Shown one piece after another: positions 11,335 to 63,401 of a stretch of DNA of 64,000 nucleotides. The stretch is taken from NCBI GenBank assembly GCA_020252645.1, contig JADCCN010000001.1, forward strand, positions 146,099 to 210,098, read 5' to 3'. The DNA is from Methylobacterium sp. Its GTDB lineage: Bacteria > Pseudomonadota > Alphaproteobacteria > Rhizobiales > Beijerinckiaceae. Below the pieces are notes generated by a model. The model was not told the origin of the DNA, made no database searches, and saw nothing but the letters and a program-made list of their open reading frames with translations. Made by a program: the position numbers and the translations under genes. Within the stretch, counting starts at the first letter, position 1. Each line of letters opens with the position of its first letter.

Positions 11335-13482
11335 ATGCCGGTTGCTCGCGACCCCGCGACCCTCACGCCGCTCGAAGCGGGCATCGAACATGCGGCACTC
11401 GCGAGCGAGATCGCCGAGCATGATCGCCGCTACCACCAGGAAGATGCGCCGACCATCTCGGATGCCGAGTATGATGCCCTGCGCCGCCGCCTCGAGGCTC
11501 TGGAGGCGGCCTTTCCGCATCTCAAGGCGTCTGTGAGCACAAGCATCGGCGCTGCCCCTGCCGGGCGCTTCGCCAAGGTGCGCCATCGGGTGCCCATGCT
11601 CTCGCTGGGCAACGCCATGAACGAGGCGGAGGCGCGCGACTTTGTGGAGCGCGTGAAGCGCTTCCTCGATTGGCCGGCGGAGAAGCCCCTGGCCATCACG
11701 GCAGAGCCGAAGATCGACGGCCTCTCGCTCTCCCTGCGCTACGAAAATCGCCAGCTTGTCTCGGCCGCGACACGCGGCGATGGCGCAGAGGGCGAAGACG
11801 TGACGCCCAATATCCGCGCGCTGATGGCTGCGCCAAACCCGACCATTGGTATTCTCGCGACGCTGCCCGCGGATGCGCCGCATGTCGCGGAGATCCGCGG
11901 CGAGGTCTATCTCGGCCATGCCGATTTCGCGGCGCTGAACGCGCGGCAGGCAGAAACCGGCGGCAAGATCTTCGCCAATCCGCGCAATGCGGCGGCGGGT
12001 TCCCTGCGCCAGCTTGATGCGAGCATCACCGCGAGCCGGCCCTTGCGCTTCTTCGCCTATGGCTGGGGCGAGATGAGCGATTCAGAGGGGAAGGAATTCC
12101 GGCCAGCCATGACGCAATTGGGCATGGTGGAAACCTTCAAAAGCTGGGGCTTTCCCACCAACCCCTTCAATGCTCTCTGCAAGACTGCCGACGACCTCCT
12201 CGCGCATTATCGCCTGATCGAGCGCGAGCGCCCGACCATCGGCTATGATCTCGATGGCGTCGTCTACAAGGTGGATGAGCTCGCGCTTCAGGCCCGGCTC
12301 GGTTTCGTGGCGCGCGCGCCGCGCTGGGCGATTGCCCATAAATTCCCGGCCGAGAAGGCGGTGACGCGCCTCAACGCCATCGAAATCCAGGTGGGGCGAA
12401 CCGGCGCGCTGACGCCCGTGGCGAAGCTCGAGCCCATCACGGTGGGCGGCGTCGTCGTCTCCAATGCCACGCTCCACAACGCCGATGAAATCGCGCGGCT
12501 CGATGCGCGGCTTGGCGATTTCGTGGTCATCCAGCGCGCGGGTGATGTCATCCCGCAGGTGGTGGAGGTGGTGCAGGATCGCCGCCCGGTCGATTCCCGG
12601 CCCTTCGAATTCCCCACCCTCTGCCCCTGCGCGCTGAAGACACCGGTGATCCGCGAGGAAACGAGCGCGGGCGTGGAAGGCGCCGTGCGGCGCTGCTCGG
12701 GCGAATTCGCCTGCCCGCACCAGCGCATCGAGCATTTGAAGCATTTCGTCTCGCGCCGCGCCTTCGACATCGATGGTTTGGGCGAGAAGCAGATCGCCTT
12801 CTTCTATGATTGCCCGGTCGAAGCCCTGCGCATCCGCGAACCGGCGGATATCTTCACGCTGCAAGCGCGCAATGCGGCGAGCTTGCAGAAAATCGAGAAT
12901 TTCGAGGGGTTCGGCAAAACCTCCGTCGCGAAGCTTTTCGCAGCCATCGAGCAGCGGCGCAGCATAAGCCTCGAACGTTTCATCTTCGCTCTTGGCATCC
13001 GCCATGTCGGCGAGACGACGGCGAAAGTGCTGGCGCGCGCATCGGGCGAATGGTCCGCTTTCGAGGCGCACGCCAGGCGCATCGCGGCGGGTGACGCCGA
13101 GGCCGTCGCCGAGTTTCAGGCGCTCGACCAGATCGGCGATGCCGTGACCGATGCCGTTGCCGAATTCTTCACCCGGACCGATGCGGTGGCGATGGTCGAT
13201 CGGCTGGCTGGCGAACTCACCATCCTTCCGGCCGAGAAGCCCGCCGCCGAAAGCCCGGTCGCCGGCAAGACGGTGGTCTTCACCGGCTCTCTCGAAAAGA
13301 TGACGCGCGACGAGGCGAAGGCGCGGGCGGAAAGCCTCGGCGCGAAGGTCGCGGGGTCGGTCTCGAAGAAGACCGATCTCGTGATTGCCGGGCCCGGCGC
13401 AGGCTCGAAGCTGGAGAAGGCAACCGAACTCGGCGTGAAGGTGATCAGTGAGGATGAATGGCTCGCGCTGATCGGCGGCTAG
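11335..13482 (+). CDS. ligA: NAD-dependent DNA ligase
   Basis: LigA seals nicks using NAD. The AMP-accepting lysine is K126 in AEPKIDGLS. It has an adenylation domain, an OB fold, a zinc-finger region with four cysteines (CPC, then RRCSGEFAC), HhH repeats and a C-terminal BRCT domain ([17 protein letters not shown] to [10 protein letters not shown]). The product is 715 residues. The stop codon TAG (13480-13482) is the first three bases of a 104-bp dispersed repeat, so the element touches the gene without altering the BRCT end. Confidence 0.97.
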
Positions 13483-13583
13483 AGCGTGCTGTGTTCAGAC
13501 GGACGCACATCATGCTCTTACCTTATTATTATCGCATGCTTTTTTGTGAAAAACCGGATTCCACTTTTTCACAGCACGCTCTA
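13480..13583 (-). repeat. 104-bp dispersed two-hairpin repeat, copy 1
   Basis: Terminal inverted repeats (TAGAGCGTGCTGTG against its near-complement ending in GCTCTA) bracket two hairpins separated by an A/T-rich spacer. On the minus strand one hairpin has arms TGTGAAAAA/TTTTTCACA around the loop GTGGAATCCGG. The other has stem CACATCATGCTCT. Near-identical 104-bp copies lie at 29809, 37508 and 41763. The first three bases are the ligA stop codon. No coding capacity is seen. Confidence 0.92.
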
Positions 13584-13687
13584 GAGCCTGCTCGCGCAAA
13601 AGTGGATACCGATTCGTCGAAAGAAAATGATTTAAATCAAGAGATTAGAGCGGTCGATCTGATCGAGTCAGATCGGCAACCGCTCCA
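13582..13687 (+). repeat. 106-bp dispersed repeat of the GTGGANNCCG family
   Basis: It begins TAGAGC, sharing two bases with the previous element. It contains AAGTGGATACCGATTC with degraded arms, an A/T-rich spacer (AAATCAAGAGATTAGAGC), and a second hairpin with nested stems GAGCGGT/ACCGCTC and CGATCTGA/TCAGATCG. A close relative of the same length lies at 50227-50332. Together with copy 1 it fills the gap between ligA and the convergent MFS gene and may act in 3'-end formation. Confidence 0.85.
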
Positions 13688-13691
13688 AGGC

Positions 13692-14873
13692 TCAGTCCTC
13701 GCGGCGCGAGAGCCAACCCGAGGCGAGCGCCAGCACGGCGCAGACCGTCATGATGATCGCGAGCGGCATGGCCGTGCCCGTCACCAGCTTGCCGCCGAGA
13801 TAGCTCGCGACCGCGCCGATTCCCATCTGCCCGAAACCGAGCAGCCCCGAACCCGCGCCCGCCGCGAGCGGATTGATGCCCACGCCCGCAGCGATGCTGT
13901 TGGGCAGCACCAGGCCATTGCCGAACGAGGCGATCATCGCCGGAATGAAGAGCGCAAGCGGATTGAGCCAGCCGGCACCCGCCGCGGCGAGAATCATCAG
14001 GGCGCCCACCAGCCCCACCACATTGCCCCAGAAGATGAGGCGCTCGCCGCCCAGGCTTGGCGTGAAGCGGCCGGAAACGAAGTTCCCCGCCATGTAGCCC
14101 AGGGAGAGCGTCATGAACCACAGGCCATATTCGGTCTTGGGGCGGTCGAGCACCTCGATCATCAGGTAGGGAGCGGTGCCGAGGAACGCGAAGAACATGC
14201 CCGAGCAGAAGGCGCCCGCGCCCCAATAGCCCATGAAGCGGCGGTCCCCCAGCAGCGCCAGGCTCCGCCTTGCGACATCGCCCGCCGTGGCCGCGACAAG
14301 GCTCGCGGGACGTGTTTCCGGCAGGATGGGCGCGGCGATCACAAAGGAGATGAAGCCGAGCACCGAACAGAACAGCAGGATGGCGCGCCAGCCGAACAGA
14401 TCGTCGATCGTCGCGCCGAGAACGGGGGAAACCATCGGAGCCACCACCATGGCCATGGTGACATAGGCGATCATGCTGGCGGCGGAATCGCGCGAATAGA
14501 GGTCGCGGATCATCGTGCGCGCCAGCGTGATGCCCGCCGTCGCGCCGAAGCTCTGCAGGATGCGCGCGACAATCAGCATCTCGACATTCGGGGCGAGATA
14601 GGCCGCGAGGCTCGACAGAACATAGAGCACGAGCGCCACCAGCAGCACCGGGCGCCTCCCGAAGCGATCGGCCAGCGGGCCGAGCATCAATTGTCCCACC
14701 GCCATGCCGAGCAGGTAGAGCGAAAGCGTGAGCTGCACGCGCTCCTTCGTGGCCTTCAGGCTATCCACCATCCCCGGCAGGGAGGGCACGAGGATGTTGA
14801 GCGTCAGCGGCCCCAGCATGGAGAGCATGACGAGCAGGACGAGAAAGGCCCGGCTGTTCGTGTCCGTTTTCAT
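13692..14873 (-). CDS. MFS drug-resistance transporter, Bcr/CflA type
   Basis: A 393-residue inner-membrane protein with about 12 hydrophobic helices. It has the MFS loop motif GPLADRFGRRPVLL near residues 65-78 and ARILQSFGATAGITLARTMIRD, typical of Bcr/CflA (DHA1) efflux proteins. The substrate cannot be predicted. Its start overlaps the stop of the upstream M24 peptidase gene by 4 bases (ATGA), so the two form a translationally coupled pair. It converges on ligA, with two repeat elements between them. Confidence 0.9.
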   Translation of the reverse strand: MKTDTNSRAFLVLLVMLSMLGPLTLNILVPSLPGMVDSLKATKERVQLTLSLYLLGMAVGQLMLGPLADRFGRRPVLLVALVLYVLSSLAAYLAPNVEMLIVARILQSFGATAGITLARTMIRDLYSRDSAASMIAYVTMAMVVAPMVSPVLGATIDDLFGWRAILLFCSVLGFISFVIAAPILPETRPASLVAATAGDVARRSLALLGDRRFMGYWGAGAFCSGMFFAFLGTAPYLMIEVLDRPKTEYGLWFMTLSLGYMAGNFVSGRFTPSLGGERLIFWGNVVGLVGALMILAAAGAGWLNPLALFIPAMIASFGNGLVLPNSIAAGVGINPLAAGAGSGLLGFGQMGIGAVASYLGGKLVTGTAMPLAIIMTVCAVLALASGWLSRRED

Positions 14874-63179: not shown

Positions 63180-63192
63180 AGGCCGTCCCGTC

Positions 63193-63215
63193 ATGCCCGG
63201 ACTTGCTCCGGGCAT
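63193..63215. repeat. ATGCCCGG...CCGGGCAT palindromic repeat
   Basis: Perfect 8-bp inverted repeat ATGCCCGG/CCGGGCAT with a 7-base loop, in the context GTCATGCCCGG to CGGGCATCGACG, just after pobA. It is a short GC-rich intergenic palindrome of a kind widespread in Hyphomicrobiales, and could also stop pobA transcription, though no T-run follows. Confidence 0.7.
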
Positions 63216-63267
63216 CGACGACCTTGCACGCAGCGGGAAGACCCGGATCGCCCGGCCATGAAGGGAG

Positions 63268-63401
63268 CGGCGAGAGCGAAATTCGATCTGAATGAATGAG
63301 ATCGACCGCTCTCTGTTTTTGTGATTGATCGCGTTTTCTTCACGCGAACCGGCATCCATCCCCGCCTTCACGAGGGACAAGCTTCGCTTGAAAATGCTTT
63401 A
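63268..63401 (-). repeat. Dispersed repeat of the GTGGANNCCG family with nested palindrome
   Basis: On the minus strand: TAAAGCATTTTCAAGCGAAG, then a nested palindrome-like TCCCTCGTGAAGGCGGGGA, then GCCGGTTCGCGTGAAG with outer arm AAACGC. An A-rich spacer follows, then a hairpin GAGCGGTCGATC...GATCGAATTTCGCTC. It matches the third unit plus tail at 37382-37507 closely. Its terminal TAA (63401-63399) is the iolB stop codon. Confidence 0.88.

Follow-up and report, generated by a model that had tools for sequence, protein, structure and literature searches.

Intergenic hairpin repeats of a Methylobacterium sp. are RIME/CIR-like elements very probably mobilized by IS630-family transposases

Intergenic repeats of alphaproteobacteria reportedly include RIME1 (Rhizobium-specific intergenic mosaic elements; Osteras, 1995) and CIR1-4 (Caulobacter CcrM-associated intergenic repeats; Chen and Shapiro, 2003). 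We describe dispersed hairpin elements of this kind in a 64,000-nucleotide stretch of the genome of a Methylobacterium sp. (assembly GCA_020252645.1, contig JADCCN010000001.1, positions 146,099 to 210,098; hereafter, the window). Judging from their ends and insertion sites, they are very probably miniature inverted-repeat transposable elements (MITEs) similar in kind to RIME1 and CIR, and IS630-family (Tc1/mariner-like) transposases would move them in trans. Rhizobial RIMEs and other repeats are described as intergenic and of unknown function (PMC2573895), and CIR as repeats of ~110 bp in which a linker joins two arms, one loop contains GANTC, the ends carry TA and mobility is unresolved (PMC2229807). 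IS630 elements target TA, which is duplicated on insertion (PMC2170065), and the title of a paper by Tenzen and Ohtsubo cited there names the TA within CTAG as the preferred IS630 target.

RIME/CIR is the known kind to which these repeats can be assigned; membership is based on anatomy and not on a letter-by-letter match to a consensus. Likened by description only, they share with CIR the length of ~110 bp, two linked arms, TA ends, intergenic location and alphaproteobacterial hosts (PMC2229807, PMC10969869). GANTC in the loop of one arm, as described for CIR, is present in 12 of 20 own left ends, but many copies here lack it, and an IS (insertion sequence) partner family and a TA duplication are assigned here. 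RIME1 likewise consists of intergenic mosaic repeats of Hyphomicrobiales, and a search of 200 of the 1683 kb of S. meliloti pSymB with the covariance model introduced below gave three weak matches of the same architecture (E 2e-4 to 5e-3), with other loops than here. The RUP repeat of Streptococcus pneumoniae, associated with IS630-Spn1, is a 107-bp non-autonomous repeat with IS630-like ends and a TA target (PMC2229807). In non-CIR repeats, however, stem-loops form by pairing of the 5' and 3' ends (PMC2229807), whereas here each end folds into a hairpin by itself and no partner turned up in the genome. A form of ~107 bp with TA ends and hairpin-forming transcripts is also described for Correia/NEMIS of Neisseria, which, however, occurs in other hosts and has an end-to-end stem with a 24-bp terminal inverted repeat (PMC2229807).

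The window contains the motif GTGGANNCCG 19 times, whereas 3.15 occurrences are expected; none of 100 shuffles reached 19. Eleven of these sites lie within hairpin elements whose arms start with C/TTAGAGC or a CTAAAGC-like sequence, and the remaining eight have no CTAGAGC arm. A covariance model built on 22 copies was then used to search the window, contig C1 of the same genome (329 kb) and the whole genome. It returned 13 distinct matches at eight places in the window, with one further overlapping antisense match (E 0.049), and at least 112 matches genome-wide, this being the number of candidates scored. C1 gave 53 matches at E ≤0.1, seven of which were discarded before counting (six at E >0.005 and one opposite-strand duplicate), leaving 46 in 35 clusters. 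The same model found five matches at E ≤0.1 in 80 control loci (thymidylate synthase loci). The window matches are listed below with their scores; G007 is a congener to which the C1 sites were compared.

13479..13584, minus strand: full element, type A, 100.4 bits; shares a CTAG with the next element; its outer TAG serves as stop codon of ligA; the pair is absent from G007 (site 13)
13581..13688, plus strand: full element, type B, 88.9 bits; joined to the element at 13479..13584
24843..24950, minus strand: full element, type D/B, 86.6 bits; empty site CTAG in G007 (site 14)
29808..29913, plus strand: full element, type A, 106.8 bits; flanked by fumarase-like and TctC genes
37236..37506, plus strand: composite element containing two 83-bp tandem units (tandem family D2), 49.2 bits for 37236-37374; its TAG is the stop of a Band_7 gene
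37507..37612, plus strand: full element, type A, 109.7 bits; joined to the composite at 37236..37506
41504..41566, plus strand: single-hairpin unit of a composite, 35.2 bits; follows an IPP-transferase gene
41567..41642, plus strand: second hairpin unit of the composite starting at 41504, 50.2 bits
41713..41803, plus strand: third hairpin unit of that composite, 54.7 bits; the match overlaps the element at 41762..41867
41762..41867, minus strand: full element, type A, 104.2 bits; ends the composite starting at 41504; a related composite in G007 ends in GCTTTAG without this element (site 18)
50226..50333, plus strand: full element, type B, 105.4 bits; flanked by LysE-type and ilvC genes
57568..57674, plus strand: full element, type C, 88.1 bits; upstream of a leuA-like gene; empty site CTAG in G007 (site 20)
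63271..63402, minus strand: element interrupted by an inserted module, 44.8 bits; between convergent genes; empty site CTAT in G007 (site 21)

The common architecture comprises two hairpins, a linker and CTAG ends, ~106 bp in all. Length was 105-108 bp in 32 of the 35 copies with both ends recognized; besides these, there were composites and units of 42-44 bp with a single hairpin. Most copies that were folded gave the two-hairpin fold. Compared with their shuffles, four window elements (one of them on both strands) and one single-hairpin copy formed better folds as single-stranded DNA, with z-scores of -2.9 to -9.4; the weakest (57568) was equalled by 2 of 200 shuffles and the others by none. 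All nine loci quoted in the initial annotation contain hairpins as described. The loop held to be invariant is nearly so, but not strictly (GTGGGAACCG at 37256), and the arms are paired as stated except that the TTCAAGCGAA/TTCGCGTGAA stem is imperfect. Four copies (13479, 29808, 37507, 41762) and two others (13581, 50226) do have equal lengths, which come to 106 and 108 bp with the outer C/G counted rather than to 104 and 106 bp, while the copy placed at 63268 is present at 63271-63402 but interrupted.

Some further observations concern the elements and their surroundings. The two exact 83-bp tandem units at 37236-37506 contain the palindrome CCCCGCGAAGGCGGGG, inside the composite element, and a related module reappears at 41654 and, degraded, near 63360. 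Many contigs of this genome (C1, C3, C5, C7, C8, C14, C19, C20, C23 and C24 of G000) begin or terminate in elements or at most ~300 bases from them, so that the repeats probably break the assembly. A full-length element with 72.9% identity lies on the Sphingobium plasmid pTomTYG46a (Sphingomonadales; L313), ~430 bases from an annotated DDE transposase gene. At gathering scores, no Rfam family reached threshold at the elements, and the window yielded only a transfer-messenger RNA (tmRNA) and a tRNA; the former, at 32518-32880 on the minus strand, is a two-piece (permuted) alphaproteobacterial tmRNA with the tag ANDNYAPVAQAA.

Empty sites show how the elements insert. The congener G007 is 92% identical across one 3.9-kb stretch and syntenic with much of C1. 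Among the 35 C1 clusters, whose classes in G007 were assigned by reading, 11 were empty, 10 were occupied by an element or remnant, four fell in large gaps and 10 had no flank match; thus 11 of the 21 clusters with readable flanks were empty. Nine of the 11 empty sites carry a TA-type target: CTAG (sites 1, 2, 14, 20 and 31), CTAA (4 and 5), CTAT (21) or TTAG (29). Site 5 is the clearest of the asymmetric sites. Its empty form, AAAAAG-CTAA-CGGGC, becomes AAAAAG-C-TA-GAGC...GCTC-TA-A-CGGGC when filled, so that TA is duplicated and the element body is GAGC...GCTC; a 4-bp duplication does not fit. At the asymmetric sites 4, 21 and 29, the outer bases agree with a TA duplication, but at least one of the two dinucleotides has changed to CA or GA. 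Insertion of the body GAGC...GCTC thus takes place at the TA within a CTAG-like site, leaving TA duplicated on its flanks. Adjacent elements are joined through one common CTAG at 13581, near 37505 and near 41760, as would be expected if CTAG ends themselves serve as targets; such joining produces the mosaics. For three places in C1 (23957-24062, 298054-298347 and 306923-307028; L198, L209), the corresponding position in G007 is taken by an element of another type. Element types seem to have been replaced in place, or sites reused.

Gene context was assessed with a home-made G+C filter that called 253 genes. By these calls, 33 of the 35 clusters lie in gaps between genes (15 convergent, 18 tandem and none divergent), the other two being at a contig end and inside a long, possibly spurious open reading frame. 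Some clusters share gaps, and the context tests were therefore redone on 30 distinct gaps: 13 were convergent, 17 tandem and none divergent, compared with 32, 99 and 38 of 169 (p = 2e-3 for convergent and 7e-4 for divergent gaps). The element edge contains a neighbor's stop codon at 14 of the 35 clusters, giving 16 stops in all, and 13 of these 16 are TAG vs 15 of 237 elsewhere (p = 8.6e-12). Elements start with G, and one that inserts at a stop codon's TA therefore restores TAG. CTAG itself occurs 69 times in C1 against 1083 expected from base composition (~16 times rarer), and 37 of the 69 are at elements; free target sites are therefore scarce.

The ends of the elements point to the family of the mover. 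L235, from a same-order genome of another family, is an IS630-type element with PF13358 and two genes, orfA and orfB, bounded by CTAGAGCATTTTCCGATCAA and CTAGAGCGTTTTCC. Its first 20-mer is identical to element starts in the congeners G001, G008 and G014 and is one base off the unit at 41567. Relatives of its orfA occur in 66 of 297 genomes of the order at E ≤1e-10, and 30 IS loci, seed included, were fetched, one per genome. Convergent C/TTAGAGC ends 950-1150 bp apart were present in 16 of these 30 loci; 200 Markov controls gave a mean of 0.035 (maximum 1), and 391 real chunks gave none.

A profile of positions 8-30 was derived from 32 IS ends, none of them from this genome, one doubtful end (TTAGAGCCATATC) having been removed beforehand. 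It was applied to the 46 kept C1 matches, whose ends were taken literally, excluding unanchored ends (seven right and six left). The null consisted of 81 C/TTAGAGC sites (mean -15.3, sd 7.2); the IS ends themselves averaged 11.7 when each was left out in turn. Right ends (39 anchored, 22 distinct) had a mean of 8.6; 19 of the 22 exceeded the 95th percentile of the null and 20 scored best in register. For left ends (40 anchored, 29 distinct), the mean was -1.9, with 21 of the 29 above that percentile and 22 in register. An earlier profile test had used ten hand-picked type ends, some with their first bases normalized to CTAG and one, D_right, pieced together from two copies; of these ten, C_left failed, since 27 of the 81 null sites scored as high. 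By these scores, the resemblance to IS630 ends is clear for right ends and less so for left ends.

Compared position by position, the element ends hold, in register, GAGC, a variable arm (~8-20) and a box (~20-28; e.g. TGGAATC, GACGGAAGC or CTGAATG) that resembles the inner part of same-order IS630 ends. Fifteen of the 32 IS ends have a GANTC that begins at position 24, as do 12 of 20 own left ends, the latter being mostly close copies of type A and so not independent; TC stands at positions 27-28 in 29 of the 32 IS ends. Because the inner end box of IS630, with its GANTC, is in register with the element, the 'invariant loop' occupies the place of that box. In a comparison covering 11 of 12 genomes (G254 was left out), right ends of elements matched IS ends of the same genome slightly better than other IS ends (10.4 vs 9.0 of 21 positions, p = 0.027), with a range of 4 to 16 and the highest value, 16 of 21, in G133 and G264.

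Together, these results suggest how the repeats may have spread. We propose that the loop is conserved because the IS630-type box lies in it, and that box and arm form a putative transposase binding site. The arms would differ between lineages by following transposase specificity, and would stay symmetric if both arm copies are used or if the end acts as a folded or dimer-bound palindrome. A stop codon would not be harmed by an insertion at its TA, since the leading G of the element restores TAG, and copies could thereby persist at gene 3' ends.

Several points weigh against this interpretation. Intact TA on both sides was seen only at sites 1, 5 and 20, and two of the 11 empty sites, 13 (CTGA) and 28 (ATG), have no TA. 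The end pair was absent from the fetched stretch in 14 of the 30 IS loci, some of them cut at contig ends. Eight of 29 distinct left ends and three of 22 distinct right ends did not exceed the 95th percentile of the null; the same-genome test for left ends fell short of significance (p = 0.054), and the right end in G148 matched at only 4 of 21 positions. The closest partner, L235 with CTAGAGCATTTTCCGATCAA, belongs to another family of the order. A search of the genus found no IS whose ends are nearly the same as those of this genome's types, and two congener DDE_3 loci (G006, G010) had no matching end pair. While TA target duplication and IS630-like ends, both expected of an IS630-family MITE, were found, an autonomous partner in the same genome was not: G000 gave no match to PF13358, PF13340, PF01797, PF01609 or PF13586 and none to orfA. 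The copies are therefore probably the remains of a recent burst whose transposase has since been lost.

The alternative that fares best among the rest, itself improbable, is that the hairpins act in transcripts as a 3' untranslated region stabilizer, terminator, RNase site or small RNA, and that the arms covary under selection on RNA. The covariation is real. It was scored in a MAFFT alignment (A2), not fitted to structure, of 33 first hairpins (32 distinct): seven from the window, 25 from loci of 25 other genomes and one from a plasmid record. Three of 29 loci (L286, L287 and L306) had no loop match and hence fell outside it. Changes on both sides were found at 13 of the 15 stem pairs, bearing out the conserved loop and co-varying arms of the initial annotation. 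Paired cells amounted to 86.1% vs 68.9% after shuffling, and the covariation score was 0.464 vs 0.175 (sd 0.017) in shuffled and at most 0.131 in slid versions; kinship among the 33 rows inflates the shuffle test, and part of the excess over the slid versions is expected, as the stem structure was derived from the consensus. Helix 1 was weaker (81.7% paired vs 91.1%). Perfectly complementary inner arms include TGAAAAA, CGAAGAA, CGATCAA, CGGCCAA, CCGCCAA, CGACGAA and CCGAAAA. The intergenic location, with 13 of 30 distinct gaps convergent, would also suit a role in transcripts, and REP (repetitive extragenic palindromic) elements and repeats with transcriptional activity have been reported in S. 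meliloti (PMC2873474). However, a strand-specific tolerance of wobble pairs (G-U over A-C) was looked for and not found: mismatches in the 26 distinct inner stems comprised eight G-T, seven A-C and 16 others, so that neither strand is favored as RNA. Orientation relative to tandem genes was mixed (nine same, seven opposite), no terminator-like site was present in 37200-37700, the sole stretch scanned, no Rfam family reached threshold, and about half of the comparable sites are empty in G007. Selection at the RNA level is not supported. Of the two causes offered in the initial annotation, it is the mobilizing factor that is well supported, by the empty sites, the TA duplication and the IS630-like ends; this factor may or may not depend on the structure.

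Mobilization by some other transposase that targets TA or YTAR, such as those of the IS427 group of the IS5 family, is less likely still. The target of the IS427 group is YTAR, with which CTAG, CTAA and TTAG are compatible, and PF13340 is present in 7 of 13 genomes of the genus. Yet our own genome has no PF13340 match. None of 20 fetched PF13340 loci, several of them cut at contig ends, had a convergent C/TTAGAGC pair 600-1800 bp apart (single sites occurred in seven), and two such loci with CTAG-bounded end pairs begin with GGTCTTGTTGAC and GGTTCAGG. With no GAGC-type end pair at any fetched IS5-type locus, the IS427 group, considered on account of its YTAR target, was rejected as the mover.

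Little more can be said for the idea that copies are retained as regulatory sites linked to CcrM, for the sake of the GANTC in the loop. GANTC is indeed enriched (6.18 sites per kb within elements, compared with 1.51 for C1 as a whole), and CIR repeats take their name from an association with CcrM (PMC2229807). Against this, only 12 of 20 own left ends contain GANTC, loops such as GTGGATACC (18) and GTGGAAACC (4) lack it, and the GANTC-bearing box is found also in 15 of 32 IS630 ends, which accounts for GANTC without regulation. REP-like elements served by a Y1 transposase (RAYT, REP-associated tyrosine transposase), a partner suggested in the initial annotation, would likewise be palindromic, intergenic and of high copy number, but can practically be dismissed, as Y1_Tnp had no match in the 13 genomes of the genus, our own and 12 congeners, while the identical search was positive in 5 of 14 control genomes, and as a TA duplication, seen at the insertion sites, is not expected of Y1 enzymes.

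Our preferred explanation thus remains that of RIME1/CIR-kind MITEs moved by IS630-family transposases. As far as searched, the TA targets at empty sites, the IS630-like ends in register with the RIME loop, and the placement in gaps and at stop codons are new. No link of these repeats to IS630 was found in the titles and abstract starts of the open-licence literature searched, some of which discusses CIR, and the accessible part of a 2024 review of MITEs mentions neither IS630 nor 'rhizob'. A bolder version, which we consider rather doubtful, is that the hairpins are working transposon ends rather than relics of inverted repeats, with the IS630-type box in the loop of each palindromic end, arms co-evolving with the transposase as its symmetric binding site, and CcrM methylation of the GANTC within the box gating transposition by the cell cycle. 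If this were true, CIR and RIME would be cell-cycle-gated transposon ends, and their long-noted GANTC would derive from a transposase site. For decades, hairpin repeats between the genes of rhizobia and other alphaproteobacteria have been catalogued without a mover. The present analysis offers a testable answer, in which the mover would be of IS630 type, the 'methylation site' would be part of its binding site, and insertion that preserves stop codons would lie behind the position of the repeats.

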